DNA from: Vogesella urethralis
Lineage (GTDB): Bacteria > Pseudomonadota > Gammaproteobacteria > Burkholderiales > Chromobacteriaceae
Assembly: GCF_007644045.2 (NCBI RefSeq)
Contig: NZ_VMDW02000118.1
Coordinates: 62,001 to 126,000 of the forward strand
Direction: 5' to 3'
Length of the DNA stretch: 64,000 bases
Positions 150 through 63,488 of this stretch are shown here, in pieces. The translations under genes were made by a program, and so were the position numbers. The notes below the pieces were generated by a model. The model did not search any database, was not told where the DNA came from, and saw only the letters and a list, made by a program, of their open reading frames with translations. Positions within the stretch are counted from its first letter, which is position 1. Each line of letters opens with the position of its first letter.

Positions 150-369
150 GGGGAGGTCCCGGGTTAGCGTTCAGACAAGGGGAGTAACAAGCAAGCAGCT
201 TGCCAGCCCCGCAACGGCACCGCAAGGTTGGCCGCAGCGTGGTCTGGCTTGCGTTGCTGGCCTATCAGTCGCACAAACGGGGTGCCGGCTTACACGCCAG
301 GTGCGACTTTCTGTCTTGCCGGCACCGTGCTGGGACATTTTGTCCGTGTGCGTGTGCCGGCCAGACATG

Positions 370-394
370 AAAAAAGCCTGCACGCGGCAGGCTT
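370..394 (-). terminator. Rho-independent terminator after puuC
   Basis: An 8-bp stem (374-381 with 387-394) around a 5-nt loop, followed on the minus strand by a run of six T (370-375). It lies 20 bp beyond the puuC stop codon. The rest of the 150-413 gap shows only one copy of the dispersed 10-mer (226-235) and no gene. Confidence 0.85.
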
Positions 395-413
395 GGCTGG
401 GTAGGGCGCGGGC

Positions 414-1901
414 TTACAGCTTGATCAGCGTCGACTTCAGCTCGGTGTATTTTTCCAGCGCGTGCAGCGATTTGTCGCGGCCATTGCCGGACTGCTTGAA
501 GCCGCCGAACGGGAAGTTCATGTCGCCGCCTTCGTCGTAGCAGTTCACCCACACGGTACCGGCGCGCAGGCGGCGCGACACCTGGTGCGCGGTGGTGACG
601 TTGCTGGTCCACACCGCGGCGGCCAGGCCGTACTCGGTGTCGTTGGCGATGCGGATGGCTTCTTCCACGTCGCTGAAGGTGATGATGGACAGCACCGGGC
701 CGAAGATTTCCTCGCGGCAGATGGTCATGTCCGGGCGCGGGCACACGAAGGCAGTAGGTTCGATGAACAGGCCTTCGTCGGTGCGGGTAGCGTTGCCTCC
801 GCACACCAGTTCGCAGTTTTCCTCGCGCGCTTTGGCGATGTAGCCCAGCACCTTGTCGTACTGGATGCGGTCAACAATGGCGCCCATGCTGGTGGCCGGG
901 TCCAGCGGGTCGGCCGGCTGGTAGGCGGCAGCGGCTTTCTTGAACTCGGCCAGGAAGGCGTCCTTGATATCCTTGTGTACCAGCAGGCGCGAACCGGCAG
1001 TGCACATCTCACCCATGTTGTAGAAGATGGCGCCGGCGGCGGTGTTGGCGGCGCGGGCCAGGTCCGGGCAGTCCGGCAGGATGATGTTGGGCGACTTGCC
1101 GCCCAGCTCCAGCCAGGCACGCTTGAGGTTGGACTGCGCGGCGTAGGTGGCGATCAGCTTGCCCACGCCGGTGGAGCCGGTAAAGGCGACGCAATCGATA
1201 TCCATGTGCAGGGACAGCGCCTTGCCCACGTCGCCGGCACCCGGCAATACCTGGAACACGCCGTCCGGCATGCCGGCTTGCTTGGCCAGTGCGGCCAACC
1301 TGATGGCGGTGAGCGGCGATTTTTCCGACGGCTTGACGATCACCGCGTTACCGGCGGCCAGCGCCGGGCCGAACTTCCAGCTGGCCATCAGGATGGGGAA
1401 GTTCCACGGCACGATGGCTGCCACCACGCCGATGGCTTCGCGGGTAACCAGGCCAACCAGTTTCGGGTCCACCGGGGCGACTTCGCCGCCGATCTTGTCG
1501 ATGGCTTCGGCAAACCATTCCACGCAGTAGGCAGCGCCCGGTACGTCCACGGTGGTGGTGTCGCCGATCGGCTTGCCGGCGTCCAGCGTTTCCAGCAGCG
1601 ACAGCTCGTCCTTGTGTTCGCGGATCAGGGCGGCAAAGCGCTTCAGGATGCGGCCGCGCACCAGCGGGGCCAGGCCCGACCACTTGCCGCTGTCGAATAC
1701 GCGGCGGGCGGCGGCGACCGCCTGCTCCACCTCGGCGTCGCCGGCCCAGCTGATGTCGGCCAGCTTGGCGCCGGTTGCCGGGTTGATACAGTCAAACGTG
1801 CGCCCGTCTGCAGCCGTGACGTACTGGCCGTCGATGAATGCGCGGCCTTCGATGGTGAGCTGGCTGGCCAGAGCCTGCCATTCTGCATGGGTGCGAGCCA
1901 T
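414..1901 (-). CDS. puuC: Gamma-glutamyl-gamma-aminobutyraldehyde dehydrogenase
   Basis: A 495-residue NAD(P)+-dependent aldehyde dehydrogenase of normal length. Visible landmarks are PWNFP (165-169), the cofactor loop FTGSTGVGK (240-248), the general base Glu265 in LELGGK and the catalytic Cys300 in GEMCTAG. The start has a good ribosome site (AAGGAGAA). In the puu pathway the enzyme oxidises gamma-glutamyl-gamma-aminobutyraldehyde to gamma-glutamyl-GABA; homologues such as KauB accept several omega-amino aldehydes. The exact substrate is inferred from the neighbours: puuR lies 48 bp upstream on the same strand and ald-puuD-puuA-spuC run divergently. A terminator follows the stop. Confidence 0.9.
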   Translation of the reverse strand: MARTHAEWQALASQLTIEGRAFIDGQYVTAADGRTFDCINPATGAKLADISWAGDAEVEQAVAAARRVFDSGKWSGLAPLVRGRILKRFAALIREHKDELSLLETLDAGKPIGDTTTVDVPGAAYCVEWFAEAIDKIGGEVAPVDPKLVGLVTREAIGVVAAIVPWNFPILMASWKFGPALAAGNAVIVKPSEKSPLTAIRLAALAKQAGMPDGVFQVLPGAGDVGKALSLHMDIDCVAFTGSTGVGKLIATYAAQSNLKRAWLELGGKSPNIILPDCPDLARAANTAAGAIFYNMGEMCTAGSRLLVHKDIKDAFLAEFKKAAAAYQPADPLDPATSMGAIVDRIQYDKVLGYIAKAREENCELVCGGNATRTDEGLFIEPTAFVCPRPDMTICREEIFGPVLSIITFSDVEEAIRIANDTEYGLAAAVWTSNVTTAHQVSRRLRAGTVWVNCYDEGGDMNFPFGGFKQSGNGRDKSLHALEKYTELKSTLIKL

Positions 1902-1949
1902 GGTGTTTCTCCTTTGTGGTGTCGGGTGCGCCCCGCCTGGCGGAGCGGC

Positions 1950-6016: not shown

Positions 6017-6050
6017 GCCGCCTGCGGCCAACCCTGGCCCCGCAGGCGGC
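6017..6050 (+). promoter_or_regulatory. Strong intercistronic hairpin between puuA and spuC
   Basis: An 11-bp perfect GC-rich stem (GCCGCCTGCGG at 6017-6027 with its complement at 6040-6050) around a 12-nt loop that can pair further. There is no T-run, so it is not a classical terminator. It may stabilise the upstream message or uncouple spuC from puuA. One copy of the dispersed 10-mer (6024-6033) forms part of the stem and loop. Confidence 0.55.
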
Positions 6051-7569: not shown

Positions 7570-7598
7570 GGTTGGCCGCGCCTGTTGTGCGGCCAACC
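7570..7598. repeat. Inverted pair of the dispersed 10-mer
   Basis: GGTTGGCCGC (7570-7579) and GCGGCCAACC (7589-7598) face each other across 9 nt, making a perfect 10-bp hairpin; the flanking AG and CT add to the stem. No T-run follows on either strand. It sits in the gap between spuC and motB, about 70 bp beyond the spuC terminator, so it could serve as a secondary terminator or as a paired uptake-type signal. A second inverted repeat (GGCGCCTG 7644-7651 with 7674-7681) lies closer to motB. Confidence 0.7.
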
Positions 7599-11553: not shown

Positions 11554-11587
11554 TTGCGGCCAACCTTTCGCCCGCCGGACGCCTGCC

Positions 11588-12499
11588 ATGCACATCGCCT
11601 TCGAACACCCGGACCAAGCCGACATTATCGCCCTCATTGCCGAGTTGGACGCCTACCAGGGCAGCCTGTACCCACCTGAAGCCTGCTATACCTTGGACAT
11701 CGCCGCGCTGGCCCAGCCGCAGGTGCGTTTTGCCGTAGCGCGCGACGCAGACGGCGTGGCGCGTGGCTGCGCCGCTGTGGTGCTGGGCGGCGATTATGGC
11801 GAGATCAAGCGCATGTACGTGCAGCCGGCGCTGCGCGGGCAGGGCGTTGCCGCGCTATTGCTGCAGCAGCTGATCGTCGCCGCACAGGCAGCAGGCTGCC
11901 CCGCGTTGATGCTGGAAACCGGCCCGCTGCAGCCGGCGGCGCTGGCCTTCTACGCGGCGCAGGGTTTTGAACGCTGCGCTGCGTTTGGCGACTACCCCGA
12001 CCACCCGCTGAGCGTGTTCATGCGCAAGCCGCTGGCTGATGCGGCGGCAGCGGTGGGCTATCAGCTGGCGCCGTGTGCCGATGACGACTTCGAGGCCTTG
12101 CTGGCTCTGCGGCTGGCGGCGATGCAGCCCAGCCTCAGCGCCATCGGCCGCTTCGACCCGCAGCGCGCCCGCGAACGCTTGGCCGCCAGTTACCAGCCGG
12201 CCATTACCCGCTGGATCGTGCGCGCCGGCCAGCGCATCGGCTTTCTGGCGTGTCGCCGGCAAAGCGACCACCATTATCTCGACCACTTCTACCTGCTGCC
12301 GGCGCAGCAAGGGCAGGGTGTCGGCAGCGCGGTACTGCGGCAATTGCAGGCCGAGGCGGCTGCCGCTGGGTTGCCGATCAAGCTGGGGGCGCTGCGGGGC
12401 AGCGCGGCCAACCGGTTTTACCAGCGCCACGGCTTCGTGCCCACGCACGAGGAGGAATGGGATATCTACTACCGCTGGGATGGCACCATCCGGCCTTGA
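11588..12499 (+). CDS. Tandem GNAT N-acetyltransferase
   Basis: A 303-residue protein made of two consecutive GNAT folds. The first has the acetyl-CoA loop VQPALRGQGVAALLL and GFERCAAFGDY; the second has LLPAQQGQGVGSAVL followed by NRFYQRHGFVP. Each half ends with the usual strand near 148 and 300. Substrate unknown. The frame is open from 11459, but the ATG at 11588 is preferred because the upstream part covers the terminator of the previous gene; its ribosome site is weak. Confidence 0.82.
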   Translation: MHIAFEHPDQADIIALIAELDAYQGSLYPPEACYTLDIAALAQPQVRFAVARDADGVARGCAAVVLGGDYGEIKRMYVQPALRGQGVAALLLQQLIVAAQAAGCPALMLETGPLQPAALAFYAAQGFERCAAFGDYPDHPLSVFMRKPLADAAAAVGYQLAPCADDDFEALLALRLAAMQPSLSAIGRFDPQRARERLAASYQPAITRWIVRAGQRIGFLACRRQSDHHYLDHFYLLPAQQGQGVGSAVLRQLQAEAAAAGLPIKLGALRGSAANRFYQRHGFVPTHEEEWDIYYRWDGTIRP

Positions 12500-12628: not shown

Positions 12629-13978
12629 ATGCCGCCATCCACCCCTGCAAACGAAGCGCCACATCACGTCGGTTTCTGGCAAGCCTTCCGCTTCTGGCTG
12701 AAGCTGGGTTTCATCAGTTTTGGCGGCCCGGCCGGGCAGATCGCCATCATGCACCAGGAGCTGGTAGAGCGGCGGCGCTGGGTCTCCGAACGCCGCTTCC
12801 TGCATGCGCTCAATTACTGCATGGTGCTGCCCGGACCGGAGGCGCAGCAGTTGGCCACGTACATTGGCTGGCTGATGCACCGCACCTGGGGCGGCATTGC
12901 CGCCGGTGCTTTGTTCATTCTGCCGTCTTTGTTCATGCTGATCGGCCTGGCCTGGGTGTACGTCGCGTTTGGCGACGTGCCGTGGGTGGCCGGGCTGTTG
13001 TTCGGCATCAAGCCGGCGGTGACGGCTATCGTGCTGCAGGCGGCGCATCGCATCGGTTCGCGTGCGCTGAAGCACCGAGCCTTGTGGGCGATAGCAGCGG
13101 CAGCTTTCGTGGCGATCTTTGCGCTGGGGGTGCCGTTCCCGGTGATTGTCCTTACCGCAGCGCTTATCGGTTATGTCGGCGGGCGCGTGGCACCGGCTGT
13201 ATTTCAGGGCAATGGCGGGCACGGCCCCGCTGGCTTGCCGGCGGGCAGCGCCATGATCGACGACCATACCCCCACGCCGCCGCACGCGCTGTTTAGCTGG
13301 CCGCGCCTGCGCCGGGTGCTGCTGGCGGGGGCGTTGTTGTGGCTGCTGCCGATGGGCTTGCTGACCGCCTGGTATGGTTGGCCGCATACGCTGACCCAGA
13401 TGGGCTGGTTCTTTACCAAGGCAGCCTTGCTGACCTTTGGCGGTGCTTACGCGGTATTGCCGTATGTGTATCAGGGCGCAGTGGGCAGCTATGGCTGGCT
13501 CAGTCCCACGCAAATGATGGACGGGCTGGCGTTGGGGGAAACCACGCCGGGGCCGCTGATCATGGTGGTGACCTTTGTCGGTTTTGTCGGTGGCTACGTC
13601 AAAGCCGTGTTCGGGCCGGATAGCCTGTTCCTGGCCGGCGCGGTGGCGGCCACGCTGGTGACCTGGTTTACCTTTTTGCCGTCTTTCATCTTCATCCTGG
13701 CGGGCGGGCCGTTCATCGAAACCACCCATGGCCAGCTGAAATTTACCGCACCGCTTACCGCCATCACTGCCGCCGTGGTCGGCGTCATCCTGAACCTGGC
13801 GCTGTTTTTTGCCTACCACGTGTTGTGGCCAGCCGGGCTGGGTGGCGCGTTTGACTGGCGCGCAGCGCTGCTGGCAGTGCTGGCCGCCATCGCCTTGTTC
13901 CGGTTCAAGGTCGGGGTCATCCCGGTTATTGTCGCCAGCGGTTTGGCGGGTGGTCTGATGCGCCTGCTGTCCGTTTGA
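12629..13978 (+). CDS. chrA: Chromate transporter, two-domain CHR family
   Basis: A 449-residue inner-membrane protein with two homologous CHR domains, each starting with its FGG motif (FISFGGPAGQIAIMH near residue 33 and LLTFGGAYAVLPYV in the second half). About ten hydrophobic segments are visible, and a hydrophilic linker (about 190-225) joins the halves. Long-chain ChrA proteins export chromate and confer resistance; some homologues have other anion substrates. The frame extends upstream to 12500, but the ATG at 12629 matches the family N-terminus. It is convergent with fdhE and shares a terminator palindrome. Confidence 0.9.
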   Translation: MPPSTPANEAPHHVGFWQAFRFWLKLGFISFGGPAGQIAIMHQELVERRRWVSERRFLHALNYCMVLPGPEAQQLATYIGWLMHRTWGGIAAGALFILPSLFMLIGLAWVYVAFGDVPWVAGLLFGIKPAVTAIVLQAAHRIGSRALKHRALWAIAAAAFVAIFALGVPFPVIVLTAALIGYVGGRVAPAVFQGNGGHGPAGLPAGSAMIDDHTPTPPHALFSWPRLRRVLLAGALLWLLPMGLLTAWYGWPHTLTQMGWFFTKAALLTFGGAYAVLPYVYQGAVGSYGWLSPTQMMDGLALGETTPGPLIMVVTFVGFVGGYVKAVFGPDSLFLAGAVAATLVTWFTFLPSFIFILAGGPFIETTHGQLKFTAPLTAITAAVVGVILNLALFFAYHVLWPAGLGGAFDWRAALLAVLAAIALFRFKVGVIPVIVASGLAGGLMRLLSV

Positions 13979-14062: not shown

Positions 14063-14947
14063 TCAGGCTTCGCCGGCAACGAAGTAGGGGTTGACGCCGA
14101 TGCGGCCGTAGCCGGCTTCTGCGGCCAACATGTCCAGTAGCAGGCTGGCCAGGTCGTCGGCAAACGCCTCGGCTTGCGCGTCCAGCAGCGTGGATACCAT
14201 TTTCAGCTCGCCCTGGCAGGCGTCGCAGCATTCCACCTCTTGCACCGCGCGGTAGGTGTGCGGCTGCTTCGGGTCGGCGGCGGGAGGCGGCACGTCCTGG
14301 CGGGCCAGGCTGCGGTACTGCAGCTGGCGGGTGTTGCCGCAGGACACGCACTTCACCCGGCTGATGTGCCACTCGCTGGCGCACTGGCTGCAGCAGGCAA
14401 AGCGTACCGCGTGGCCGCTGTCGCCTCGGCGTAGAACCGACGCCACCGGTGGCGCGTGGCACACCGGGCACTGGCTGCTTTCGTCCGGGCGCAGGCTGCC
14501 TAGGTCACGCTGGCGGGCGCTGATGACCGCCTGGATCTGCATGGCCGCACCGAGCAAGGGCAGGCCGGCCTGCCACGCCGGGTTGGCCGCCGGCAGACCG
14601 TCGCGCAGCTGGGCGGCGGCCAGTTGCAGTGCGTCGTCGTCCAGCGCCAGCAGGCAGTGCAGCGCTTGCTGGCTGGCGGAGGGCAGGGTGTCGCCCAGCG
14701 CTTGTTGCAAGCGGCTGAGCAGCTCGCGTAGCGCGGCGATGTCGTGCAGCGCTTGCGCGGCCAGGGCATCGAACAGCTGTTGCTGGGCGCGGGCGATAGC
14801 GGCGCACAGTTGCAGGTAGCCGGCCATGCTGTGGCCGTCGGCCAGGCGGGCCAGCCGCTCGGCGCGACGGGCAAACACCTGCTGCCCTGGCGGACGCAGC
14901 GGCTGGGCTTGGGCGGTGTCCTGAATGTCCAGATCGTCAATCAACAT
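14063..14947 (-). CDS. fdhE: Formate dehydrogenase accessory protein FdhE
   Basis: A 294-residue cytoplasmic protein needed for active respiratory formate dehydrogenase. The C-terminal half holds the four CxxC pairs that mark the family: CPVC, CSQC, CVSC and CDAC, a rubredoxin-like iron site. Length is near the usual ~305 residues. The start lies inside the end of fdhD (11-bp overlap), so it is the last gene of fdnGHI-fdhD-fdhE. Confidence 0.93.
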   Translation of the reverse strand: MLIDDLDIQDTAQAQPLRPPGQQVFARRAERLARLADGHSMAGYLQLCAAIARAQQQLFDALAAQALHDIAALRELLSRLQQALGDTLPSASQQALHCLLALDDDALQLAAAQLRDGLPAANPAWQAGLPLLGAAMQIQAVISARQRDLGSLRPDESSQCPVCHAPPVASVLRRGDSGHAVRFACCSQCASEWHISRVKCVSCGNTRQLQYRSLARQDVPPPAADPKQPHTYRAVQEVECCDACQGELKMVSTLLDAQAEAFADDLASLLLDMLAAEAGYGRIGVNPYFVAGEA

Positions 14948-15794
14948 AGTCGTTTTCCATTACGGGGGCGGAGTGCAAGCGCCCGGTCTCGGTATAGGCC
15001 ACCAGGCGGCCGGGGCGGGCAAAGCCGGCCAGCAGCAGGCCGCAGTGGGCGGCTAGGTTGGCCGCGTAGGCGGTGGGGGCAGACACCGCCACCAGCGCCG
15101 GAATGCCGGCGAGGGCGGTTTTCTGCACCATTTCGTAACTGGCGCGGCTGGACACCAGCACAAAGCCGTCGTGGCAGGCGATGCGCTGGCGACGCAGCGC
15201 GCCGATCAGCTTGTCCAGTGCGTTGTGGCGGCCAACGTCTTCGCGTACGAGGACGATGCTGCCGTCGGCGCGGCAGTAGGCTGCGCCGTGTGCGGCGCCG
15301 GTGGCGGCGTGCAGCGGCTGCTGCGCAGGCAGCGCGGCCAGTGCACGCGCCACGCTATCCACGTGCAGGGTTGGCCGCAGCGGCAGCGGCGGGATGGCGC
15401 GGGCGACGGCGTCCAGGCTATCGACGCCGCACAGGCCGCAGCCGGTACGGCCGCTAAGGCTGCGGCGGCGGTCTTTCAGCGCGGCAAAGCGCGCGCTGGA
15501 TATTTCCAGCCGCAGCTCGATGCCGGCGCTGCCGTGCCACAGCTCGCAGTCGTACAGCTCGCCCGGCTGCTGCAGAATGCCTTCGCTCAAGGAAAAGCCC
15601 AGTGCGAAGTCCGCCAGGTCGCCGGGGCTGGCCAGCAGCACCGCGTGCGAGATGCCGTTGTACACCATCGCCACCGGCACCTCGTCGATCAGCACGTCGC
15701 TGTCCGGGTGCGCCAGCCCGCCCTGTACGCGCAGTACCGGGCGGTCTTGTTGCAAGGGCAGGCTGTCGCCGGCCAGCGGTTGCGCGCAGCTCAC
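14937..15794 (-). CDS. fdhD: Formate dehydrogenase sulfurtransferase FdhD
   Basis: A 285-residue FdhD, which carries sulfur from IscS to the molybdenum cofactor of formate dehydrogenase. The functional CxxC is visible in GRTGCGLCGVDS; the family segments VYNGISHAVLLASP, REDVGRHNALDKLIG and SSRASYEMVQKT are present. The GTG at 15794 is chosen as start: it overlaps the fdnI stop by 4 bp (GTGA) and follows a GGAAA ribosome site. The next in-frame ATG would cut into the conserved region. Confidence 0.93.
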   Translation of the reverse strand: MSCAQPLAGDSLPLQQDRPVLRVQGGLAHPDSDVLIDEVPVAMVYNGISHAVLLASPGDLADFALGFSLSEGILQQPGELYDCELWHGSAGIELRLEISSARFAALKDRRRSLSGRTGCGLCGVDSLDAVARAIPPLPLRPTLHVDSVARALAALPAQQPLHAATGAAHGAAYCRADGSIVLVREDVGRHNALDKLIGALRRQRIACHDGFVLVSSRASYEMVQKTALAGIPALVAVSAPTAYAANLAAHCGLLLAGFARPGRLVAYTETGRLHSAPVMENDYVD

Positions 15795-16411: not shown

Positions 16412-17310
16412 GCCTTGTCCTCCTCTTTGGCAGCCGGGTTGGCCGCAGCGTGGCTATCGTCTTCGTCCGGGCGGTTGGGGCCGACGGTGATGTAGTGGAA
16501 GAAGCCGAACAGGCCGGCGGCGGCAATGCCCACCGTGGCCAGCGGTTTCAGCCAGCCTTTCCACAGCTGCACCGTGGTGCTGATGGCCGGGTCTTTCGGC
16601 AAGCCCGAGTACTGCTCTGGCTTGTCGGCGTGGTGCAGCACGTACATCACGTGGGTGCCGCCCACGCCTTGCGGGTCGTACAGGCCGGCGTTGGCGTAGC
16701 CGCGGGATTTGAGGTCGGTGACGCGGGTGGCGGCCACTTCCTTCATGTCTTCCTTGCTGCCGAACTGGATGGCGCCGGTGGGGCAGGTTTTCACGCAGGC
16801 CGGCTCCAGGCCCACCGACACGCGGTCGGAGCACAGCGTGCACTTGTAGGCCTTGTTGTCCTTCTTGCTGATGCGCGGCACGTTGAACGGGCAGCCGGAG
16901 ATGCAGTAGCCGCAGCCGATGCAGTTTTCCTGGTGGAAATCCACAATGCCGTTGCTGTACTGGATGATGGCGCCCGGCGACGGACAGGCCTTCAGGCAGC
17001 CGGGGTCGGCGCAGTGCATGCAGCCGTCTTTGCGGATCAGCCATTCCAGCTTGCCGTTACTGTCTTCTTCGGCAAAACGCATCACCGTCCAGGCGTCGGC
17101 GCTGAGGTCGGTGGGGTTGTCGTAGACGCCGATGTTGTGGCCAACCTCCTCGCGGATGTCGTTCCATTCCGAACAGGCCACCTGGCAGGCCTTGCAGCCG
17201 ATACAGGTGGAGGTGTCGATCAGTTTGGCGATTTCGATGGTCTTGCGCGCCTGCGGGCTGGCCGTGGGGCTGGCGGAGCGGCGGCTGATATCAAGGGATT
17301 GCAATGCCAT
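16408..17310 (-). CDS. fdnH: Formate dehydrogenase iron-sulfur (beta) subunit
   Basis: A 300-residue ferredoxin-type subunit. Four cysteine groups are visible: [35 protein letters not shown] and CTLC...CVKTC, enough for four [4Fe-4S] clusters. A single C-terminal membrane helix (about 255-275) anchors it beside the cytochrome, as in E. coli FdnH/FdoH. It lies 13 bp after fdnG and overlaps fdnI by 4 bp. The tail is rich in Ala, Asp and Glu and carries one copy of the dispersed 10-mer. Confidence 0.94.
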
Positions 17311-27945: not shown

Positions 27946-27973
27946 AAAAGGTTGGCCGCGGCCAACCTTTTTT
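27946..27973. terminator. Bidirectional terminator built from two overlapping dispersed 10-mers
   Basis: GGTTGGCCGC (27950-27959) and GCGGCCAACC (27958-27967) overlap by two bases, forming a perfect 18-bp palindrome flanked by A-run and T-run. It ends ppnP and, in the other direction, the K+ channel gene that stops at 27997. This matches the way inverted uptake sequences double as terminators in Neisseria. Confidence 0.9.
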
Positions 27974-48807: not shown

Positions 48808-50244
48808 ATGAGCCAATTAGCCATTGCCGAACAACTGTTGCTGGCCCCGTACGGCGTGACCGAAAGCGTGATCGAGTCCACGCTGGGGCGCATGCTGGGC
48901 CACCAGATCGATTACGCCGACCTGTACTTCCAGAGCACGCGCAGCGAAGGCTGGAGCCTGGAAGAGGGCATCGTCAAGGCCGGCAGTTTCAGCATTGACC
49001 AGGGCGTCGGCGTGCGCGCCGTCGCCGGCGACAAGACCGCCTTTGCCTATTCCGACGATATCAGCGCCTTTGCGCTGGGCAAGGCGGCCGACGCGGTACG
49101 CGCCATCGGTGCCGCCGGCGGCCACGGCAACGCCGGCGCGGTAGCCACCCGCTATGGCAGCAGCCTGTACGCGGCGGCCAACCCGCTGGACAGCCTGCCG
49201 GCCGAGGCCAAAGTGGCCATCCTGCAGAAAGTGGAAAAACTGGCCCGCGCCGCCGACCCGCGCATCATCCAGGTGATGGCCGGCCTGGCTGCGGAGTACG
49301 ACGTGGTTTACATCGCCCGCCACGACGGCGTGCGCAGCGCCGACGTCCGTCCGCTGGTGCGGCTATCGGTGACGGTGATTGCCGAACAGGATGGCCGCCG
49401 CGAAATGGGCAGCAGCGGTGGTGGCGGTCGTTACGACCTCAGCCGCTTTGGCGACGCGCAGATCGAGCACCACGTGCAGAAGGCGGTACGTCAGGCGCTG
49501 GTGAACCTGGAAGCCCGCCCGGCACCGGCCGGCCAGATGACGGTAGTGCTAGGCGCCGGCTGGCCCGGCGTGCTGCTGCACGAAGCCATCGGCCACGGCC
49601 TGGAAGGCGACTTCAACCGCAAGGGCACCTCGGCCTTCAGCGGCATGATCGGCCAGCGTGTCGCCGCAGCGGGCGTGACCGTGGTAGACGACGGCACGCT
49701 GCAGGACCGTCGCGGCTCGCTGTCCATCGACGACGAAGGTAATGCCACGCAGCGTACCGTGCTGATCGAGGACGGCATCCTCAAAGGCTATATGCAGGAC
49801 GCGATGAACGCCCGCCTGATGGGCGTGGCGCCTACCGGCAACGGCCGCCGCGAGTCCTACGCCCACATCCCGATGCCGCGCATGACCAACACCTACATGC
49901 TGGGCGGCGACAAGACGCCGGAAGAGATCATCGCCTCGGTGCCGGACGGCATTTATGCGGCCAACTTCGGCGGTGGCCAGGTGGACATCACCAGCGGCAA
50001 GTTCGTGTTCTCGGCGTCGGAGGCGTGGAAGATCGAAAACGGCAAGCTGGCCTACCCGGTGAAGGGCGCCACGCTGATCGGCAACGGCCCGGATGTGCTG
50101 AACTACGTGTCGATGATCGGCAACGACATGGCGCTGGACGAAGGCGTGGGCGTGTGCGGCAAGGAAGGCCAGAGCGTGCCGGTGGGCGTCGGCCAGCCCA
50201 CGCTGCGCATCGACGGCGGCCTCACCGTCGGCGGCACCGCCTGA
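48808..50244 (+). CDS. tldD: Metalloprotease TldD
   Basis: A 478-residue zinc protease subunit. The metal motif is [11 protein letters not shown] (His258, Glu259, His262). TldD works with TldE in a heterodimer that degrades unfolded peptides and matures some modified peptides; tldE is not in this window. Full length. The gene is the third of yhdP-nitrilase-tldD and converges on the ybdK-type gene with 16 bp between stops; an 8-bp GC hairpin without T-run (50252-50271) overlaps that junction. Confidence 0.95.
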
Positions 50245-50260: not shown

Positions 50261-51370
50261 TCAGGCCAGCCATTGCCCGGCCTGACGGCGCAGCATGTCG
50301 TGCAGGCTGGCATCGCCCGGCTGCAGGCACGGCGACGGCGTGTCGCCCGCTTGCAGCTGTTGCTGCAGCCCCTGCAGTAGCTGCCGGCTGAAGTCATCCG
50401 TGGCATGCGGCAGGATCTGTTGCAGCGTATCCAGCATCTGCTGCCGCAGCGGGCGCCGTCCGCCGCGCTGCACGTCAATGAAAGTGGCGTCCACGCCGTG
50501 GCGCGCTGCCTGAAAGCGGTTGTAGCCGTACACGCTGTACAGCGCTTCGCGCCCGGGCAAGGTTGGCCGCAAGGCCAGGTAGTACTGCGCCAGCGCCTGG
50601 GTGTATACCGCCAGCAGCACTGCATGCCGCATCGTGTACGGCGTATCGAAGATGCGTACCTCCACCGTGCCGTACTCCGGCTTGGGGCGAATGTCCCAGT
50701 ACAGGTCTTTCAGGCTGCCGATAATGCCGTGGCTGGCCAGCAGATGGGTGTGGTCACAAAAATCCTGCCATTGCCGCAGCTGAGCGGGCAGGTGGCCGCT
50801 ATTGGGGAACGCGTGCACGGTATTGCTGCGTGCCGAGGCAAAGCCGCTGGCTTCGCCTTGCACGTAGGGGGAGGCGGCTGACAGCGCCAGCAGCACCGGG
50901 ACGTGGTACGCCAGCGCGTGGCACAGCCAGATGGCGCTGTCGCCATCCGGGCAACCCACGTGTACATGCTGGCCGAAGACGGTGAACTGCCGCGCCAGGT
51001 AACCGTACTCGCTGGCAAAGTGATGGTAGCGCGGGTGGTCGCTGATACGGCGCTGCCGCCAGTCCTGGAACGGGTGGGTGCCGCCGCCGCACGGCAAGGC
51101 GCCCAGCTGGTAGCAATAATGCTGCAGGATCAGCCCCGCCGAGTGCATGTCGTCGTACAGCGTGGCGCCGGTGGCGTGCACCTGGCTGTTGATCTCCAGC
51201 ATCGAGCACGTCACCTCCTGCTTGAACTGCTGGTGTCCGTCGGCGTGCAAATCGGCCAGCAAAGCCGGCGCGCAGGGTTTCAGGTCCAGGTTTTGCTGGC
51301 ACAATAGCTGGATTTCCAGCTCCATGCCGACGGTACCGGGGCGCGAGGGGGTGAAAGCCGGAATGTGCAT
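50261..51370 (-). CDS. YbdK-type carboxylate-amine ligase (GCS2 family)
   Basis: A 369-residue ATP-grasp-like ligase related to plant-type glutamate-cysteine ligase. The N-terminal TVGMELEIQLLCQQNLDL, the metal-site strand EVTCSMLEINSQVHATGA and FGQHVHVGCPD identify the family. YbdK has weak gamma-glutamylcysteine ligase activity; the physiological substrate is unknown. The ATG at 51370 has an AAGGAGA ribosome site; the open frame up to 51655 overlaps the divergent MarR gene and is shadow. One dispersed 10-mer is at 50561. Confidence 0.88.
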   Translation of the reverse strand: MHIPAFTPSRPGTVGMELEIQLLCQQNLDLKPCAPALLADLHADGHQQFKQEVTCSMLEINSQVHATGATLYDDMHSAGLILQHYCYQLGALPCGGGTHPFQDWRQRRISDHPRYHHFASEYGYLARQFTVFGQHVHVGCPDGDSAIWLCHALAYHVPVLLALSAASPYVQGEASGFASARSNTVHAFPNSGHLPAQLRQWQDFCDHTHLLASHGIIGSLKDLYWDIRPKPEYGTVEVRIFDTPYTMRHAVLLAVYTQALAQYYLALRPTLPGREALYSVYGYNRFQAARHGVDATFIDVQRGGRRPLRQQMLDTLQQILPHATDDFSRQLLQGLQQQLQAGDTPSPCLQPGDASLHDMLRRQAGQWLA

Positions 51371-52450: not shown

Positions 52451-52483
52451 GCGGTGTGCTCCTTGCGGCCAACCCTGGCCGTA

Positions 52484-53137
52484 TCAGATTTCATCCAGGG
52501 CGGTTTCGCCCAGGTGGCGGGTGTCGGCCCACAAATCCACCTGCCAGCGTTCGCCATCAAATCTTAACCAGTTCAGCGAGGCGTTGGGCACCACGATCAT
52601 GCGTTGCCCTTGCAGCGGTTGGCCGCTGGCCAGGCGGTAGATCATGTCCAGTACCCCGCCGTGTGCCACCAGCAATACCCGTTGGCCGCGGTGCGCGTCG
52701 GCCAGTTGCCGAACCGCGCCGTGGATGCGGTCGGCAAAAGCCTGGATGCTCTCGCCACCGTACAGGTCGTGCTGCAGGCTGCGCTCGCTGTAAGCCGCCC
52801 ATGCTGCCGGGTGCGTGTGCGCGGCCTCGTCCAGCCGTGCTCCCTGCATGGCGCCGAAGTGGCGTTCCATCAGCGCGGCGTCGGTGGCCAGCGGCAGGCC
52901 GACGGCGTGGGCCAGCGGTACGGCGGTGTCGAAGGCGCGACGCAGTGGGCTGCTGTACAGCACGTCAAAGCGGTGGCCGGCGGCGGCGACGGCGTCTGCC
53001 AGCTGGCGCGCCTGGCGCTGGCCTTGCGCATTCAGCGGAATGTCGAGCTGGCCTTGCAGCCGGCGTTCGGCGTTCCAGTCGGTTTCGCCGTGGCGGACCA
53101 GGCAGAAGCGGGTGGCAAGGTGGGGCATGGCGGGCAT
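52484..53137 (-). CDS. Histidine phosphatase-family protein
   Basis: A 217-residue member of the phosphoglycerate mutase-like phosphatases. The phospho-histidine motif is RHGETDWN (Arg15-His16), with partner residues in YSSPLRRAFDTA and LLVAHGGVLDM. The substrate is unknown; phosphoglycerate mutase-, CobC- and GpmB-like enzymes all share these motifs. The ATG at 53137 or that at 53128 may be used. It follows the AEC transporter gene by 36 bp. Confidence 0.87.
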   Translation of the reverse strand: MPAMPHLATRFCLVRHGETDWNAERRLQGQLDIPLNAQGQRQARQLADAVAAAGHRFDVLYSSPLRRAFDTAVPLAHAVGLPLATDAALMERHFGAMQGARLDEAAHTHPAAWAAYSERSLQHDLYGGESIQAFADRIHGAVRQLADAHRGQRVLLVAHGGVLDMIYRLASGQPLQGQRMIVVPNASLNWLRFDGERWQVDLWADTRHLGETALDEI

Positions 53138-54164: not shown

Positions 54165-55529
54165 TCACAAGATGCCGACGCCGGAAATCTCTCGTGCTAG
54201 GTTGGCCGCGTAGTTGTCGGTCATGGCACCGATGTAATCCAGCACGCCCATATAGGCTTGGTACAGGGTCTGGTCATCGTGCAGCGGGCGCGGTAGCAGC
54301 CCTAATGCTAGTGCCTGTCGCGGGCTAAGCGCGGCCTCGCCGCCGCTGATGCGGGCATGCACTGCCGGCACCAGCACGTCGAGTACGGTGGCGATGCAAG
54401 GGTAGGATGCCAGCTCGGTTACCAGCTTGGTGCGGTGGCGGTACACCTTCTGGCTGGCCAGCGCCTTGGCGTCCTGCAGGGTTTGCTTGATGTCCGGCGC
54501 GCAGACGTCGATCAGGTCTTTGCCCGGGAAGGTGCCGGCCAGCAGCGTGTCCTGGTGCAGCATGAATTTCTCGGCTACCTCGGCCACGCAGCGGCCAACC
54601 GCTATCCCGCGCAGCATGGCGCATTTCTGGCTGATGTCCTGGGTTTGCCAGACGCGTTCGGTTTCGCCGAAGTGGCTGAACAGCATTTCGAACTCGCGTA
54701 CGTCAAGAATGCCGATTTCGACCGCGTCCTCCAGGTCGAGGATGGCGTAGCAGATGTCGTCGGCCGCTTCCATCAGGTAGGACAGCGGGTGGCGGCACCA
54801 TTCGCGTTCGCCCTTGCGCAGCAGGCCCAGCTCGGCGGCGACGCGTTCGAAATAGGGCAGCTCGGTGCGGTAGATGTTGAACTTGCCTCGTGCCTGCGCG
54901 CGCGGGGCGTCTGATGTCCACGGGTACTTGATCAGCGCGCCGAGGGCGGCGCTGGTTAGCCGCATGCCGCCTTCGCCCTGGTACATCTCCAGGCTGGCGA
55001 CCATGCGCAGGCCGTGGGCGTTGCCTTCGTAAGTCTGGATGTCATGCCGTTCGGCGTCGCTCAAACCAGCCAGCAGCGCCGCGTGGCGCGGGTCTCGGAA
55101 CCACTCGCGCAGCGCGTCCTCGCCGGTGTGGCCGAACGGCGGGTTGCCGATGTCGTGCGCCAGGCAGGCCACTTGCACCGCACCGCCGATATCGAACGGC
55201 GTATAGCCGTCCGGCAGCAGGCCCTGCGTCTGCATCATCGCGCCCACGCGGTTGCCCAGGCTGCGGCCAACGCTGGCCACTTCCACGCTATGGGTGAGCC
55301 GGTTGTGGGTGTGGTCGTTCGGCGCCAGCGGGTGAACCTGGGTCTTGCGCCCCAGACGGCGGAAGGCGCTGGAAAACACCACGCGGTCGTGGTCGATGTG
55401 GAAATCGCTGCGCAGGCCGGCTGCGCCTTCCAGTGTGGCCGGGGTGCGCGTTTCGCGGATGTCGTCGCCAGCCACCTTGAAACGGCGGGTGGACAGCAGT
55501 TGCGGCCAGTGCATGCGGTCGGTGCTCAT
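54165..55529 (-). CDS. dgt: Deoxyguanosinetriphosphate triphosphohydrolase-like protein
   Basis: A 454-residue HD-superfamily enzyme that splits dNTPs to the nucleoside and triphosphate. The HD-motif residues are in NRLTHSVEVASVG, ACLAHDIGNPPFGHTGE and the later MEAADDICYAILDLEDA; FRRLGRKTQVHPL near the start is also family-specific. The ATG at 55529 is chosen (AAGG 7 nt upstream); an ATG 6 bp earlier is also in frame. Two copies of the dispersed 10-mer lie within the gene. Confidence 0.92.
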   Translation of the reverse strand: MSTDRMHWPQLLSTRRFKVAGDDIRETRTPATLEGAAGLRSDFHIDHDRVVFSSAFRRLGRKTQVHPLAPNDHTHNRLTHSVEVASVGRSLGNRVGAMMQTQGLLPDGYTPFDIGGAVQVACLAHDIGNPPFGHTGEDALREWFRDPRHAALLAGLSDAERHDIQTYEGNAHGLRMVASLEMYQGEGGMRLTSAALGALIKYPWTSDAPRAQARGKFNIYRTELPYFERVAAELGLLRKGEREWCRHPLSYLMEAADDICYAILDLEDAVEIGILDVREFEMLFSHFGETERVWQTQDISQKCAMLRGIAVGRCVAEVAEKFMLHQDTLLAGTFPGKDLIDVCAPDIKQTLQDAKALASQKVYRHRTKLVTELASYPCIATVLDVLVPAVHARISGGEAALSPRQALALGLLPRPLHDDQTLYQAYMGVLDYIGAMTDNYAANLAREISGVGIL

Positions 55530-55680
55530 GATCATGCCTTGCAAGAGGGGATGACGGCATGATGCCAGAATCGCGGCCCGGGCTGTAAGGTTGGCCGCAG
55601 GCTGCATTGCTGGCGCTGCGGCCTTGCGCGTAAGGCAGGCCGGTGCTTGCGTGCGGTGAGGTGGCATTAAATAAATAAAA

Positions 55681-55755: not shown

Positions 55756-56973
55756 ATGACTGCTGCACACCCCAAACTGATCCTGTTGGCCATTTGCCTG
55801 GTGGCCTTGATGAGCACGGCCGGCGTGGCCATGCCTTACCCAATCCTGGCGCCCATCTTCGTGGATGCGCCAGCCGATGGTTTCAACCACTTTGCCGGCT
55901 TGCCGCCCAAGCTGTTGCTGGGCATTGCACTGGCGGCCAACCCGCTGGGCATTTTGCTGGGCAGCAGCTTCATCGGCGCGCTGTCCGATCGCCTGGGTCG
56001 CCGCCGCGTGCTGCTGGCTACGCTGACGCTGACCTTGCTGGGCTATCTGCTGACTGCGTGGGCCTTGCATATGCGCTGGTACTGGCTGTTTGCCTTTGCC
56101 CGTTTCCTGACCGGGGTGACCGAGGGCAATGTAGCGGTGGCGCGGGCCATCGTGGCCGACCTGCACCCGCAGCTTGATCGCGCGCGCAGCTTTGCCATCC
56201 TGAACGCGGTGCTGTACATGGGCTGGTTGGTGGGGCCGATGATAGGCGGTTTTACCTTGCCGCTGGGCGAGCCGGTGCCGTTCATGATCGGCGCGCTGAC
56301 GCTGCTGCCTTGTCTGGCCATCCTGCTGTGGGTGTTGCCGGAAACCGGAGCCATCCCCGGCCTCGCCGGAAAATCGGTACTGGCCACCGTGCGCGAGCAG
56401 CATGCTTTCCGCCTGCTGCGGCAGGATCACACGCTGGCGGCGCTGTTCTGGATGCAGCTGGTGTTCGCGCTGGGTGTCAACGCTTTTTACGAGTTTTACC
56501 CGCTGTGGCTGGTGGAGTTTGCGCGGCTGGACAGTACCGGCATTGCCTGGGTCACCGCCGGCTTGTGCCTGGTGATGACGCTGAGCAGCACACTGGTGGG
56601 CAAGCTGGGCATGGGGGCCGACCCGCTGCGGCGCGCGCGACAGCAGGCGGTAATGCTAGGTTTGGGTTTGCTGCTGTTTGTGGCGTTACCGCCGGCAGCC
56701 GGCTTGTGGTTGATGATCGTGCTGGGTTTGCCGCTGGCTATCTACAACGCGGTGTTGCCGAGCTGGTGTGCCGAGCGCTTTGCGGCGTACGGGCAGGGCA
56801 GCGTGATGGGTTTGCTGAGTACCATTTTCTGTATCAGCAATGTATCGATTGCCATTCTGGGCAGCCTGCTGACCTTGCTGGACACTCGTCTTACCATCGC
56901 GCTGGGTGGCTGCATGTGCCTGCTGGCGGTGATCATGCTCAATCGTTTGTTGCGTAGCGGGAGGGAGGCGTGA
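55756..56973 (+). CDS. Major facilitator superfamily transporter
   Basis: A 405-residue, twelve-helix transporter. The MFS motif A between helices 2 and 3 reads GALSDRLGRRRVLL, and the first half keeps FARFLTGVTEGNVAV. The type resembles drug exporters (Tet/Bcr-like), but the substrate is unknown. It is followed directly by a regulator gene whose ATG overlaps the TGA stop, a usual arrangement for an exporter with its own control gene. Confidence 0.85.
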   Translation: MTAAHPKLILLAICLVALMSTAGVAMPYPILAPIFVDAPADGFNHFAGLPPKLLLGIALAANPLGILLGSSFIGALSDRLGRRRVLLATLTLTLLGYLLTAWALHMRWYWLFAFARFLTGVTEGNVAVARAIVADLHPQLDRARSFAILNAVLYMGWLVGPMIGGFTLPLGEPVPFMIGALTLLPCLAILLWVLPETGAIPGLAGKSVLATVREQHAFRLLRQDHTLAALFWMQLVFALGVNAFYEFYPLWLVEFARLDSTGIAWVTAGLCLVMTLSSTLVGKLGMGADPLRRARQQAVMLGLGLLLFVALPPAAGLWLMIVLGLPLAIYNAVLPSWCAERFAAYGQGSVMGLLSTIFCISNVSIAILGSLLTLLDTRLTIALGGCMCLLAVIMLNRLLRSGREA

Positions 56974-57596
56974 TGGCTGGTGTCGATAAGGTACTGTACC
57001 TGCTGAAAACCCGCGGCGAGCAGACTGCACAAACGCTGGCCGAGTTGCTGCAGCTTACCAGTATGGGCGCGCGCAAACATTTGGAGGCGTTGCAGCAGCG
57101 TGGCCTGGTGTGTAGTGAAGACAGGCCGGCGGGTAAGGGGCGCCCGGCGCGCTACTGGCAGCTGACCGAAGCCGGGCACGCCCGTTTTCCGGACCGGCAT
57201 GGCGAGTTGACCGCCCAGTTGCTGGTCTTGTTGCGGGAAACGGCGGGCGAAGCGGCGGTGGAGGCCTTGATTACCGCCCGCGAACAACAGGCCATGGCGG
57301 TGTACCGCGCCGGCATGGCCGCTGCGGCCAACCTGCCGGCGCGGCTACAGCGTCTGGCGCAAATGCGCAGTGACGAGGGCTATATGGCCGAGCTGACCCA
57401 GGACGGCGATAGTTGGCTGCTGATAGAAAACCACTGCCCGATCTGTGTCGCGGCGCGTGCCTGCCAGGGTTTCTGCCGTTCGGAGCTGCAGCAGTTTGCT
57501 GCCTTGTTGCCGCAGGCCGAAGTCCGCCGCGAAGCGCACTTGCTACAGGGTGGCCAGCGCTGCGTTTACCGCATCGTGCCCCTGAACGCTAACTAG
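56973..57596 (+). CDS. Helix-turn-helix regulator with four-cysteine C-terminal motif (SufR-like)
   Basis: A 207-residue regulator. The N-terminal winged helix (about 5-70, TAQTLAELLQLTSMGARKHL and KGRPARYWQLTEAGH) is DeoR/ArsR-like. The C-terminal part has four cysteines in HCPICVAARACQGFC (C-x2-C-x5-C-x3-C), suitable for a metal or iron-sulfur cluster and reminiscent of SufR-type proteins. The ATG overlaps the MFS stop (TGATG); a GTG one codon earlier is possible. The stop TAG is completed by the first base of the inverted-repeat element that follows. Confidence 0.78.
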   Translation: MAGVDKVLYLLKTRGEQTAQTLAELLQLTSMGARKHLEALQQRGLVCSEDRPAGKGRPARYWQLTEAGHARFPDRHGELTAQLLVLLRETAGEAAVEALITAREQQAMAVYRAGMAAAANLPARLQRLAQMRSDEGYMAELTQDGDSWLLIENHCPICVAARACQGFCRSELQQFAALLPQAEVRREAHLLQGGQRCVYRIVPLNAN

Positions 57597-57860: not shown

Positions 57861-57862
57861 TA

Positions 57863-60558: not shown

Positions 60559-60586
60559 AAAAAAGACCCGGCTAGCCGGGTCTTTT
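60559..60586. terminator. Bidirectional terminator between the two cytochrome c' genes
   Basis: A perfect palindrome AAGACCCGGCTAGCCGGGTCTT flanked by A-run and T-run on both sides, within the 199-bp gap between the convergent stops. The remainder of the gap shows no gene. Confidence 0.9.
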
Positions 60587-60601
60587 GTATGGTGACGCTG
60601 A

Positions 60602-61033: not shown

Positions 61034-61132
61034 TGCTACACCTCGTTTCGGGCAGGGTCGGATTGGGATGGCTAGAGCATAGCATAGTATGTCAGCGGGT
61101 TTGCTTACGCAGGTATTAACGCTTGTGAATAC

Positions 61133-61153
61133 TTTTGTTATAAAGTAACATTT
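61133..61153. promoter_or_regulatory. Zur-box-like operator upstream of zur
   Basis: The dyad TGTTATAAAGTAACA (61136-61150), with TTTT/ATTT-type flanks, is close to the known Zur operator pattern (AAATGTTATA-n-TATAACATTT). It lies about 35 bp before the zur start, where it could control zur and its downstream metal genes, and possibly the divergent cytochrome c'. Confidence 0.65.
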
Positions 61154-61184
61154 GAGAATTCTTAACGTTTGTAAGGTCATCGTC

Positions 61185-61619: not shown

Positions 61620-62542
61620 AAAAAACGCTGGTCAATGTGATTACCGGCTTTCTGGGCGTGGGCAAGACCACGGCGCTGCGCCACATGATTGCCCACCGTC
61701 CGCAGGGCGAGAAGTGGGCCATTATCGTCAACGAATTTGGTGAAATCGGCATCGATGGCGCCGTGCTGGATAACGGCGAACTGCCGGTGGCGGAAATTGC
61801 CGGTGGTTGCCTGTGTTGCGTGGCCGGCCCGCAGATGACGGTGACGGTGGCCAACCTGGTGCGCCGTGAGCGCCCGGACCGGCTGATCATCGAAGCCAGT
61901 GGGCTGGCCCACGCTGCCGGCCTGATCGACGAGCTGCGCGCCGATCCATTGGGCAAGGCGCTGGAAGTGGGGGCGGTGATGACGCTGGTCGACCCGCGCC
62001 AATTCGTCAACAACGACTACTTCCGCCAGCCGCTGTACCGCGATCAGGTGATGGTGGCCGACGTGTTGCTGGCTACCAAGGGTGACCTGTGCGACGACGC
62101 CACTCTGGCCCAGTACCGAGACAAGGCAGCTGCGTTGTTCCCGCCCAAATCGCTGGTGGCCGATATCCGTGACGGTGCGGCCAACCCGGCCTGGCTGGAT
62201 ACCGAAGTGGCGGCCAAGCCGCGTTACCGCCCGGCGGTGCGCAGCGACGACAAGCCGGGCTGGCAGTCGCACGGCTGGACACTGCCGCCTGACACGCCGT
62301 TCTCTGGCGAGGCGCTGACGGCGTTCTTTGATGGCCTGCCAGGCATGGTGACCGGGCTGGTGCGCGCCAAAGGCATTTTCCGCGTGCTGGATACCTGGCT
62401 GTGGCTGAACTGGACCGAAGGCCGCTGGGCGGCCAACCAGGTAGCCTGGCGCCGGGACAACCGTTTTGAACTGATTGCCGAGCATATCGACGTTCCTGCC
62501 ATCGAAGCGGCCTTGCGAGCCTGCATTGCTGCCGAATTCTGA
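61616..62542 (+). CDS. COG0523 GTPase, probable zinc metallochaperone
   Basis: A 308-residue P-loop GTPase. The Walker A loop is GFLGVGKTT (11-19), the metal motif CLCC holds Cys64, Cys66 and Cys67, and a CobW C-terminal domain follows from about 220. COG0523 proteins under Zur are thought to deliver zinc to client enzymes during starvation; the ZigA and YeiR types are the nearest comparison. Start overlaps the zur stop by 4 bp and has a CAGGAG site. Fits a zinc-limitation operon. Confidence 0.9.
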   Translation: MKKTLVNVITGFLGVGKTTALRHMIAHRPQGEKWAIIVNEFGEIGIDGAVLDNGELPVAEIAGGCLCCVAGPQMTVTVANLVRRERPDRLIIEASGLAHAAGLIDELRADPLGKALEVGAVMTLVDPRQFVNNDYFRQPLYRDQVMVADVLLATKGDLCDDATLAQYRDKAAALFPPKSLVADIRDGAANPAWLDTEVAAKPRYRPAVRSDDKPGWQSHGWTLPPDTPFSGEALTAFFDGLPGMVTGLVRAKGIFRVLDTWLWLNWTEGRWAANQVAWRRDNRFELIAEHIDVPAIEAALRACIAAEF

Positions 62543-62556
62543 GTCCGAATTACTGC

Positions 62557-62751
62557 ATGTCCCAACATCATCACGCTGCGCATGAGCACCATGCGCACTC
62601 GCACCCCCATCCGCATGGCGCCGGTGACGACCATCACCTGCCGCGCTGGCGCTTGCTGTCCATGTCTGCCGGGCAGCGCCTGCTGCTGGCGGCGCTGCCC
62701 CTCAGCCTGCTTTGGCTGCTGGTGGCCTGGGCGCTGGGAGGGGAGGCATGA
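62557..62751 (+). CDS. Histidine-rich small membrane peptide
   Basis: A 64-residue protein. The first 27 residues contain twelve histidines (MSQHHHAAHEHHAHSHPHPH...), then a linker and one membrane helix (about 43-60, LLLAALPLSLLWLLVAWAL). It lies between the COG0523 GTPase and the ABC ATPase; its stop overlaps the ATPase start (ATGA), so expression with the transporter is assured. A metal-binding N-terminus is obvious, and a role as zinc buffer or donor is inferred. No named family is recognised. Confidence 0.7.
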   Translation: MSQHHHAAHEHHAHSHPHPHGAGDDHHLPRWRLLSMSAGQRLLLAALPLSLLWLLVAWALGGEA

Positions 62752-63488
62752 TCACGCTCGATAACCTGACCGTTTCCTACCAGCGCCACCCCGCGGTGCA
62801 CCACGTTAGCGGCCGTTTTGCCAGCGGTACGGCCACGGCCATCTTCGGCCCGAATGGCGCCGGCAAGAGCACCTTGCTGAAAACCATCATGGGGGCGCTG
62901 AAACCCGATAGCGGCAGCGTAAAGCTGCACGGCATCGGCCGGCGCGAGCTGGCTTATCTGCCGCAGCAGTCCGAAGTAGACCGCTCGTTGCCGGTGTCGG
63001 TCATCGACCTGGTCAGCAGCGGTCACTGGCGCCATAGCGGCCTGTTCGGCAAGGTTGGCCGCCAGCAGGACGAAGCCAGCTGGAATGCGCTGGTGACCGT
63101 GGGGCTGGAAGATTTTGCCACCCGCCCGATCTCGGCCCTGTCCAGCGGCCAGTTCCAGCGAGTGCTGTTTGCCCGCATCCTGGTGCAGGACGCCCGTTTG
63201 ATCCTGCTGGACGAACCGTTCAACGCGGTCGATGCCCGCACTACGCAAGACCTGCTGCAGTTGGTAGACCGCTGGCGTCAGGAGGGGCGCACGCTGGTGG
63301 CCGTCCTGCACGACCAGGCGCAGGTGCATAGCCATTTTCCGCAAACGCTGCTGATGGCGCGCGAGGTCATTGCCTGGGGCGATACCGCCGAGGTGCTGAC
63401 CGAGGCGCGCCTGCGTAAGGCCAGCGAAACCGCAGCGCACTGGCTGGCCAAGGCGCCGTTGTGCAATGTTGACGGGAGCCCGGCATGA
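62748..63488 (+). CDS. Metal ABC transporter, ATP-binding protein (ZnuC/AztA-like)
   Basis: A 246-residue ABC ATPase with Walker A GPNGAGKST (34-42), the signature LSSGQ, Walker B LILLDEP and the H-loop VLHD. The zinc/manganese (ABC-3) family is indicated by the partner permease. It energises zinc uptake in the operon started by zur. Start overlaps the peptide gene; stop overlaps the permease start (ATGA). One dispersed 10-mer lies at 63053. Confidence 0.9.
   Translation: MITLDNLTVSYQRHPAVHHVSGRFASGTATAIFGPNGAGKSTLLKTIMGALKPDSGSVKLHGIGRRELAYLPQQSEVDRSLPVSVIDLVSSGHWRHSGLFGKVGRQQDEASWNALVTVGLEDFATRPISALSSGQFQRVLFARILVQDARLILLDEPFNAVDARTTQDLLQLVDRWRQEGRTLVAVLHDQAQVHSHFPQTLLMAREVIAWGDTAEVLTEARLRKASETAAHWLAKAPLCNVDGSPA

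Follow-up and report, generated by a model that had tools for sequence, protein, structure and literature searches.

A dispersed motif of Vogesella as a candidate dialect of a DNA uptake sequence system in Chromobacteriaceae

The DNA analysed here, which we call the window, is a stretch of 64,000 nucleotides from Vogesella urethralis (contig NZ_VMDW02000118.1, positions 62,001 to 126,000) that carries, among others, genes for an aldehyde dehydrogenase, a chromate transporter, a sensor kinase and an Hsp70-like protein, as well as glnE and yhdP. A short motif, GGTTGGCCGC, is scattered within and between these genes, with 35 exact copies from position 226 to 63062, 17 on the forward strand and 18 on the reverse. 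A preliminary description of the window had tallied 34 (16 and 18), one fewer than we count, and its claim of unusual abundance is borne out. Very probably the motif belongs to a DNA uptake sequence (DUS) system of the Chromobacteriaceae, receptor included, and is its Vogesella dialect (12-mer AGGTTGGCCGCA, 9-mer core GTTGGCCGC). The copies are as follows.

Exact copies of GGTTGGCCGC in the window (coordinates, strand, setting)
226..235, +, intergenic
1291..1300, -, within aldehyde dehydrogenase gene 414-1901
6024..6033, -, intergenic
7570..7579, +, intergenic; left arm of a facing pair
7589..7598, -, intergenic; right arm of the same facing pair
11556..11565, -, intergenic
12404..12413, -, coding
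13376..13385, +, within chromate transporter gene
14581..14590, +, coding
15056..15065, +, coding
15369..15378, +, coding
16437..16446, +, coding
21843..21852, -, coding
23951..23960, -, within sensor kinase gene
27950..27959, +, between convergent genes; left arm of the terminator-like, overlapping facing pair AAAAAGGTTGGCCGCGGCCAACCTTTTTT
27958..27967, -, right arm of the overlapping facing pair AAAAAGGTTGGCCGCGGCCAACCTTTTTT
28162..28171, -, coding
29356..29365, -, intergenic
30497..30506, +, within Hsp70-like gene
32249..32258, -, coding
37611..37620, +, coding; 9-mer retained in 5/5 close Vogesella, 7 others unaligned there
41744..41753, +, glnE; 9-mer retained in 5/5 close Vogesella and 0/7 others
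45401..45410, +, yhdP; 9-mer retained in 0/8 aligned relatives
49174..49183, -, PmbA/TldD-family gene; 9-mer retained in 0/12 relatives
50561..50570, +, coding
52465..52474, -, intergenic
52617..52626, +, coding
54200..54209, +, within HD-domain gene
54591..54600, -, within HD-domain gene
55589..55598, +, intergenic
55933..55942, -, within major facilitator superfamily (MFS) transporter gene
57324..57333, -, coding
62177..62186, -, within CobW-like gene
62429..62438, -, within CobW-like gene
63053..63062, +, within ATP-binding cassette (ABC) transporter gene

Abundance, anatomy and placement of the motif

One hundred dinucleotide shuffles of the window yielded a mean of 0.70 copies of GGTTGGCCGC and a maximum of 3, and under a third-order Markov model it is the top 10-mer of the window (35 observed against 0.73 expected), with the 9-mer found 58 times against 2.57. 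The V. urethralis genome (4,028,666 bases in 157 contigs) contains 1,867 copies, 931 on the forward and 936 on the reverse strand, about 110 times the reversed pattern used as a control (9 + 8) and thus nowhere near expectation. In a sample of 461 kb from this genome (the window plus 397 kb), again set against Markov expectations, GTTGGCCGC leads the 9-mers by count and z-score (414 against 20.75) and AGGTTGGCCGCA the 12-mers by both (70 against 0.19), and GGTTGGCCGC ranks first among 10-mers by count (210 against 5.76) and second by z-score, behind the overlapping GTTGGCCGCA (205 against 3.70).

High copy number throughout the genome, core genes included, would also suit a chromosome-maintenance or recombination motif (of the Chi, KOPS (FtsK orienting polar sequence) or matS type) or the site of a nucleoid protein, abundant incidentally, and the spacing of sites, more regular than random (variance/mean 0.65 over 91 bins of 5 kb), fits such a motif as well. 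The strands, however, are near balance genome-wide and in five contigs of opposite GC skew (forward/reverse counts 60/47, 57/59, 49/47, 41/38 and 6/10), which rules out polarity of the Chi or KOPS type, as the preliminary description had argued. Enrichment between genes and in facing pairs, a genus-specific spelling and absence from 38 of 61 family genomes, unlike housekeeping motifs, and an end-to-end resemblance to DUS, all presented below, likewise argue against this explanation, which we consider quite improbable.

Some stretches lack the motif. The longest in the sample (G000:C9:21512-29982, 8.5 kb, a length not improbable in itself) consists largely of the operon for ribosomal proteins, secY- and rpoA-like genes among them, identified by eye. 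In the window, the longest gap without the 9-mer (57323-62176, 4.85 kb, GC 0.57, its length within chance) encodes an AtaL-domain protein and holds a cytochrome c' gene.

Counted from the first T of TTGGCCGC in 482 sites of the V. urethralis genome, every position beyond -3 to +9 holds at most 0.07 bits, and single-mismatch variants of the 12-mer cluster at the outer positions 1, 2 and 12. The consensus proposed earlier, AGGTTGGCCGCAG, agrees with the top 12-mer in its first 12 bases; its final G is weak (35% G). The base following TTGGCCGC is A in 45% of the 482 sites versus 82% of 73 sites in another Vogesella genome (G060), an apparent loosening of the motif's end in V. urethralis.

A simple gene model of our own gives 449 genes over the sample, with 90.6% coding. 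Intergenic copies amount to 79 of 414 for the 9-mer (39.3 expected), 59 of 210 for the 10-mer (19.9 expected) and 29 of 70 for the 12-mer (6.6 expected); the intergenic excess noted earlier therefore stands, with 10 of the 35 window copies intergenic under this model instead of the nine first reported. The 334 coding copies of the 9-mer (168 sense, 166 antisense) occupy all six frame and orientation classes (124, 94, 63, 32, 11 and 10), in line with the several reading frames previously noted, and their unevenness would fit permissive codons. Use of all six classes, together with the intergenic enrichment, rules out a codon artefact. The sites are not restricted to mobile DNA either: core genes such as glnE bear them, as do 13 of 13 genomes of the genus.

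A dispersed mobile repeat, such as a repetitive extragenic palindromic (REP) element or a miniature inverted-repeat transposable element (MITE), or the remnant of one, would produce numerous copies, some of them in inverted pairs. This is already contradicted by the unconserved flanks, nothing being conserved beyond the 12-mer; moreover, 334 of 414 sites lie in coding frames of all six classes and point changes distinguish sites among relatives. We set this origin aside as scarcely credible.

Close neighbours among the 414 9-mer sites (60 bp or less) are not themselves in excess (25 against 21.7 expected). Of the 25, 14 face each other where about 5.4 (one quarter of 21.7) would be expected, 7 diverge and 4 are tandem (expectation about 10.9). 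Facing pairs repeatedly show offsets of 7, 11 and 16, and of the 12 with an offset of at most 35 bp, 10 are intergenic or at a gene edge and 2 within genes. Two facing pairs of GGTTGGCCGC occur in the window, at 7570/7589 and 27950/27958. The latter spans 27950-27967 between convergent genes and has a predicted fold of -17.6 kcal/mol (z -4.85); the hairpin ends in a T run on either strand and is terminator-like. Two further sampled places have near-identical sequence, again where genes converge. Judging from sequence and folding, the terminator-type facing pairs found between genes for the DUS of Neisseriaceae would have a counterpart in Vogesella.

HIP1 (highly iterated palindrome 1) of cyanobacteria is a palindromic, very abundant motif of octamer scale, found in coding and non-coding DNA and not known to be tied to a pilin receptor. 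The Vogesella motif shares its high abundance in both kinds of DNA and, unlike HIP1, is non-palindromic. An oligonucleotide of this kind, owed to methylation or restriction of the DNA or to biased repair and devoid of any uptake role, would be in keeping with the GGCC within the core and with the likewise over-represented palindromic 8-mer CGATATCG. Against it stand, besides the missing palindromy, the outer positions (1, 2, 12) of the 12-mer mismatch variants, the dialect changes that fall outside GGCC, the facing pairs between genes, and a ComP relative whose long stem in Vogesella parallels the dialect; we judge it very improbable. The palindrome itself occurs 92 times against 19.1 in the 397 kb from V. 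urethralis, 16 against 2.8 in G010 and 16 against 3.0 in G002.

Dialects and site turnover in the family

Across 61 genomes of the family, GGTTGGCCGC numbers 1,406-1,867 in all 13 Vogesella genomes, which include V. alkaliphila (G049), V. fluminis (G051), V. indigofera DSM 3303 (G052) and V. margarita (G054), and 15-74 in the 48 others. A shared stem, AGGTTGGCCG, reaches 135-1,267 in 23 of the 61 and 5-50 in the other 38 (genera g2 except G010, g3, g4 and g8); across 50 other families of the order (386 genomes) its count stays at or below 64. The spellings end in GCA, GAG or GAA and have the core CCG, and the sister dialects have GTTGGCCG in common. De novo counts gave AGGTTGGCCGAG as the top word of the G034 sample (genus g5); the GAG ending was counted there and is presumed for the other member, Crenobacter luteus (G035; 480 AGGTTGGCCG, 78 GTTGGCCGAA, 37 GGTTGGCCGC).

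In samples of five further genomes the top word is GTTGGCCGAA, with whole-genome counts of 1,368 (G010), 2,168 (G037), 1,245 (G038, Gulbenkiania mobilis), 1,851 (G045) and 1,104 (G046, Pseudogulbenkiania ferrooxidans 2002); Crenobacter oryzisoli (G036) has 579 and P. subflava (G048) 893. Overall, eight genomes from five lineages have 183-2,168 copies of GTTGGCCGAA, and the other 53 have 8-78: 77 and 78 in the g5 genomes, 8-34 in Vogesella, 10-62 in the remaining 38. A metagenome-assembled genome of Pseudogulbenkiania (G047, 84% complete) holds only 183, versus 893 and 1,104 in its relatives.

One spelling thus prevails in 13 of 13 Vogesella genomes and another in other genera, G010 among g2 being the sole exception to genus lines. 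By this grouping, made without a species tree, the dialects follow phylogeny as the DUS of Neisseriaceae do. The conservation in related genera that the preliminary description proposed to look for holds for relatives of the motif, each sister genus having its own spelling, and does not extend to 38 of the 61 genomes. Samples of the motif-free genera g2, g3, g4 and g8 (G003, 200 kb; G017, 280 kb; G002 and G039, 80 kb each; G031 and G013, 60 kb each) held no comparable word, and no hidden dialect was seen in these samples; some words there reach z-scores of 10-26, with few copies.

Site retention was followed over window positions 34001-54000, with 18 sites of the 9-mer and GC-matched control 9-mers. 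Exact retention of aligned sites is 53-65% in five close Vogesella (controls 23-28%), 45% in G055 (controls 10%) and 42% in G060 (controls 24%); in the V. indigofera clade (five genomes) it is not above controls (9-20% against 19-21%). The 12 relatives nevertheless hold 12-20 sites each in stretches of 15.6-20 kb, many at shifted positions: sites turn over at a maintained density. Among 23 GTTGGCCGA sites of sister genera alignable to Vogesella, 4 (an uncontrolled count) have the Vogesella spelling in place, the difference being GAG or GAA versus GCA or GCG.

These observations bear on whether the motif is a relic, an ancestral uptake sequence that has lost its function in this species. The ComP-like genes that persist in motif-free genera and the relaxed base after TTGGCCGC would agree with decay. 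Density held at differing positions, however, calls for continuing gain, and the reading frames of comP, pilM-Q and ComEC are open in V. urethralis; a relic appears rather unlikely.

A ComP-like pilin and the comparison with Neisseriaceae

The V. urethralis genome encodes a ComP-like minor pilin (domain PF16732), the presence of which the preliminary description had suggested checking. For the ComP relative, the best match in PDB is a Neisseria ComP both by sequence (2nba) and by fold (5hz7). In V. urethralis the gene adjoins pilMNOPQ-aroKB, an arrangement that differs from Neisseriaceae, and in V. indigofera its neighbours are aroB-aroK-pilQ; a ComEC gene lies at G000:C78:9349-10119. In many genomes (e.g. 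G000:C146, L028) the best PF16732 match is, by sequence, another PilE-like minor pilin, which we did not take as ComP because it is the other group whose best PDB match is ComP. A seemingly broken ComP in G039 proved intact, the in-frame TGA being the natural gene end. Neisseria sp. HMSC077D05 (L188, L192; contig KV797049.1) carries a pair of comP-like genes on opposite strands, separated by about 13 kb.

In a tree of 46 rows the Vogesella ComPs form one clade (support 100/99) on a stem of 0.8. Lys58 is present in 21 of 23 ComPs from motif-bearing genomes, in 4 of 4 from Neisseria and in 0 of 15 from motif-free genera, which have T, H, Y or Q instead or lack the position. The ComP receptor family is marked by two disulfides, one of which fastens a DD-region; Cys118/142 occur in 42 of 42 counted rows, Cys76 only in the 4 Neisseria rows and Cys125 in 4. 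The electropositive stripe R78, K94, K108 was not recovered (all 13 of 13 Vogesella have R in place of K94, and neither R78 nor K108 is conserved in them), and net charge does not separate ComPs of motif-bearing from those of motif-free genera. A ComP-like gene is found in 57 of 61 family genomes and the motif in 23, so that presence of the gene does not explain presence of the motif. Genera g2 (G001-G009), g3 and g8 (e.g. L278, L279, L282-L284) have open ComP-like genes and no detected uptake motif.

In the available parts of Frye et al. 2013 (PMC3630211), eight DUS dialects of Neisseriaceae are described, all with CTG and read by the receptor ComP; the CTG core is described as needed by that receptor. 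A DUS is defined as a continuous motif of 10-12 nucleotides in which CTG occupies +6 to +8 and the base at +10 is A. End to end, AGGTTGGCCGAA is identical to AG-mucDUS and AG-simDUS at 9/12 positions, to AG-DUS, AG-kingDUS and AG-eikDUS at 8/12 and to AT-DUS at 7/12; the GAG and GCA spellings reach at best 8/12 against Neisseria 12-mers. Shuffles of the same composition score 9/12 against the six dialects in 459 of 100,000 cases at fixed register and in 291 of 30,000 with the register shifted by up to 3 either way, so that the resemblance goes beyond shuffles in a way that is suggestive, not proof. Among 399 genomes of the order, the skeleton AGGNNGNCNGAA attains at least 3 times its control only in 10 of 11 genomes of family f44, in G010 and in G038; from this pattern f44 is presumably Neisseriaceae.

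The same parts of PMC3630211 list five genomes without obvious DUS, including Lutiella nitroferrum 2002 and C. violaceum, report that ComP was not found in C. violaceum, and date the origin of uptake sequences after the split of the Chromobacterium line. Lutiella nitroferrum is a name of P. ferrooxidans in NCBI taxonomy, so that a genome earlier judged to lack obvious DUS carries 1,104 GTTGGCCGAA. Table S1D of that article covers the over-represented 10-mers of the five genomes, and the motif may stand there unrecognised. Within the portion of the open-access literature covered we found no report of the motif or of uptake sequences in Vogesella and related genera, and the accessible parts of PMC3630211, PMC7371117, PMC12061091, PMC12616744, PMC11316581 and PMC10715097 do not mention it.

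An uptake sequence system and its implications

As with the DUS of Neisseriaceae, the motif is a continuous 10-12 nucleotides, present in thousands of copies in coding and intergenic DNA, with genus-wise dialects, inverted terminator-type pairs, a common 12-base frame (AGG..G.C.GAA) and a related ComP minor pilin of the same fold. The uptake sequence systems of the two families resemble each other and are probably homologous. The Pasteurellaceae offer a second comparison: the partial text of PMC12616744 gives uptake signal sequences (USS) with cores AAGTGCGGT and ACAAGCGGT, AT-rich downstream parts and PpdA/ComN as predicted receptor candidate. Abundance, dispersal, inverted pairs and clade-wise dialects are shared with USS; the core is unrelated, flanks are uninformative and the receptor candidate is another.

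Several observations weigh against an uptake system of this kind. The core is CCG, not CTG, the endings are GCA, GAG or GAA, and the family is another; Chromobacteriaceae ComPs are without the DD-region and its disulfide, the C-terminal insert of Neisseria having no counterpart in them; three genera with a ComP-like gene carry no tags, and in V. urethralis the base that follows GTTGGCCGC is relaxed, neither of which the uptake reading explains. In the ComP tree, Neisseria and four rows from other families stand among Chromobacteriaceae rows at open forks, and for this we have slightly lowered our confidence both in the uptake reading and in the broader family history set out below. With both CTG core and DD-region lacking, we treat the system as a variant and not as strict DUS. 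The match to Neisseriaceae DUS proposed in the preliminary description is thus supported as a reading and fails for the strict definition; its suggestion of a new uptake dialect gains from the genus-wide counts, the sister spellings and the ComP-like pilin.

On the proposed uptake mechanism, the type IV pilus would contain ComP as a minor pilin that binds the 12-mer on extracellular DNA, the pilus with the PilQ secretin would pull the bound DNA in, ComEC would transfer one strand into the cell and recombination would fix it. Because tagged fragments would be preferentially taken up, tags would accumulate and spread where tolerated (molecular drive). Their relative density would be highest in intergenic DNA and at permissive codons, and facing pairs would serve additionally as transcription terminators. 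A change in ComP specificity would then make the whole genome drift towards a new dialect, ending in GAA, GAG or GCA. We infer function as an uptake sequence, as we do strict orthology, binding, biased uptake, drive and causation of dialect change by ComP change.

For the family as a whole we lean, with modest conviction, towards a broader history: the Chromobacteriaceae would own a full uptake system with at least three dialects (AGGTTGGCCGAA, -GAG and -GCA) and a CCG core, derived from an ancestor that they share with Neisseriaceae, and several genera would have lost it; the CTG core and DD-region would be inventions of Neisseriaceae and not requirements, and the Vogesella dialect would have arisen with a rebuilt ComP moved beside pilMNOPQ.

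If this is true, two questions could be put to the test in a related family that has a CCG core, three dialects and a smaller receptor relative. One is the way in which ComP reads DNA, approached by comparing receptors with and without the DD-region and readers of GAA, GAG and GCA; the other is how a dialect can change in a genome bearing thousands of tags. The genera with a ComP-like gene and without tags would offer natural losses. In practice, the dialects would hint at which tags to attach to DNA meant for the transformation of Vogesella, Gulbenkiania or Pseudogulbenkiania.

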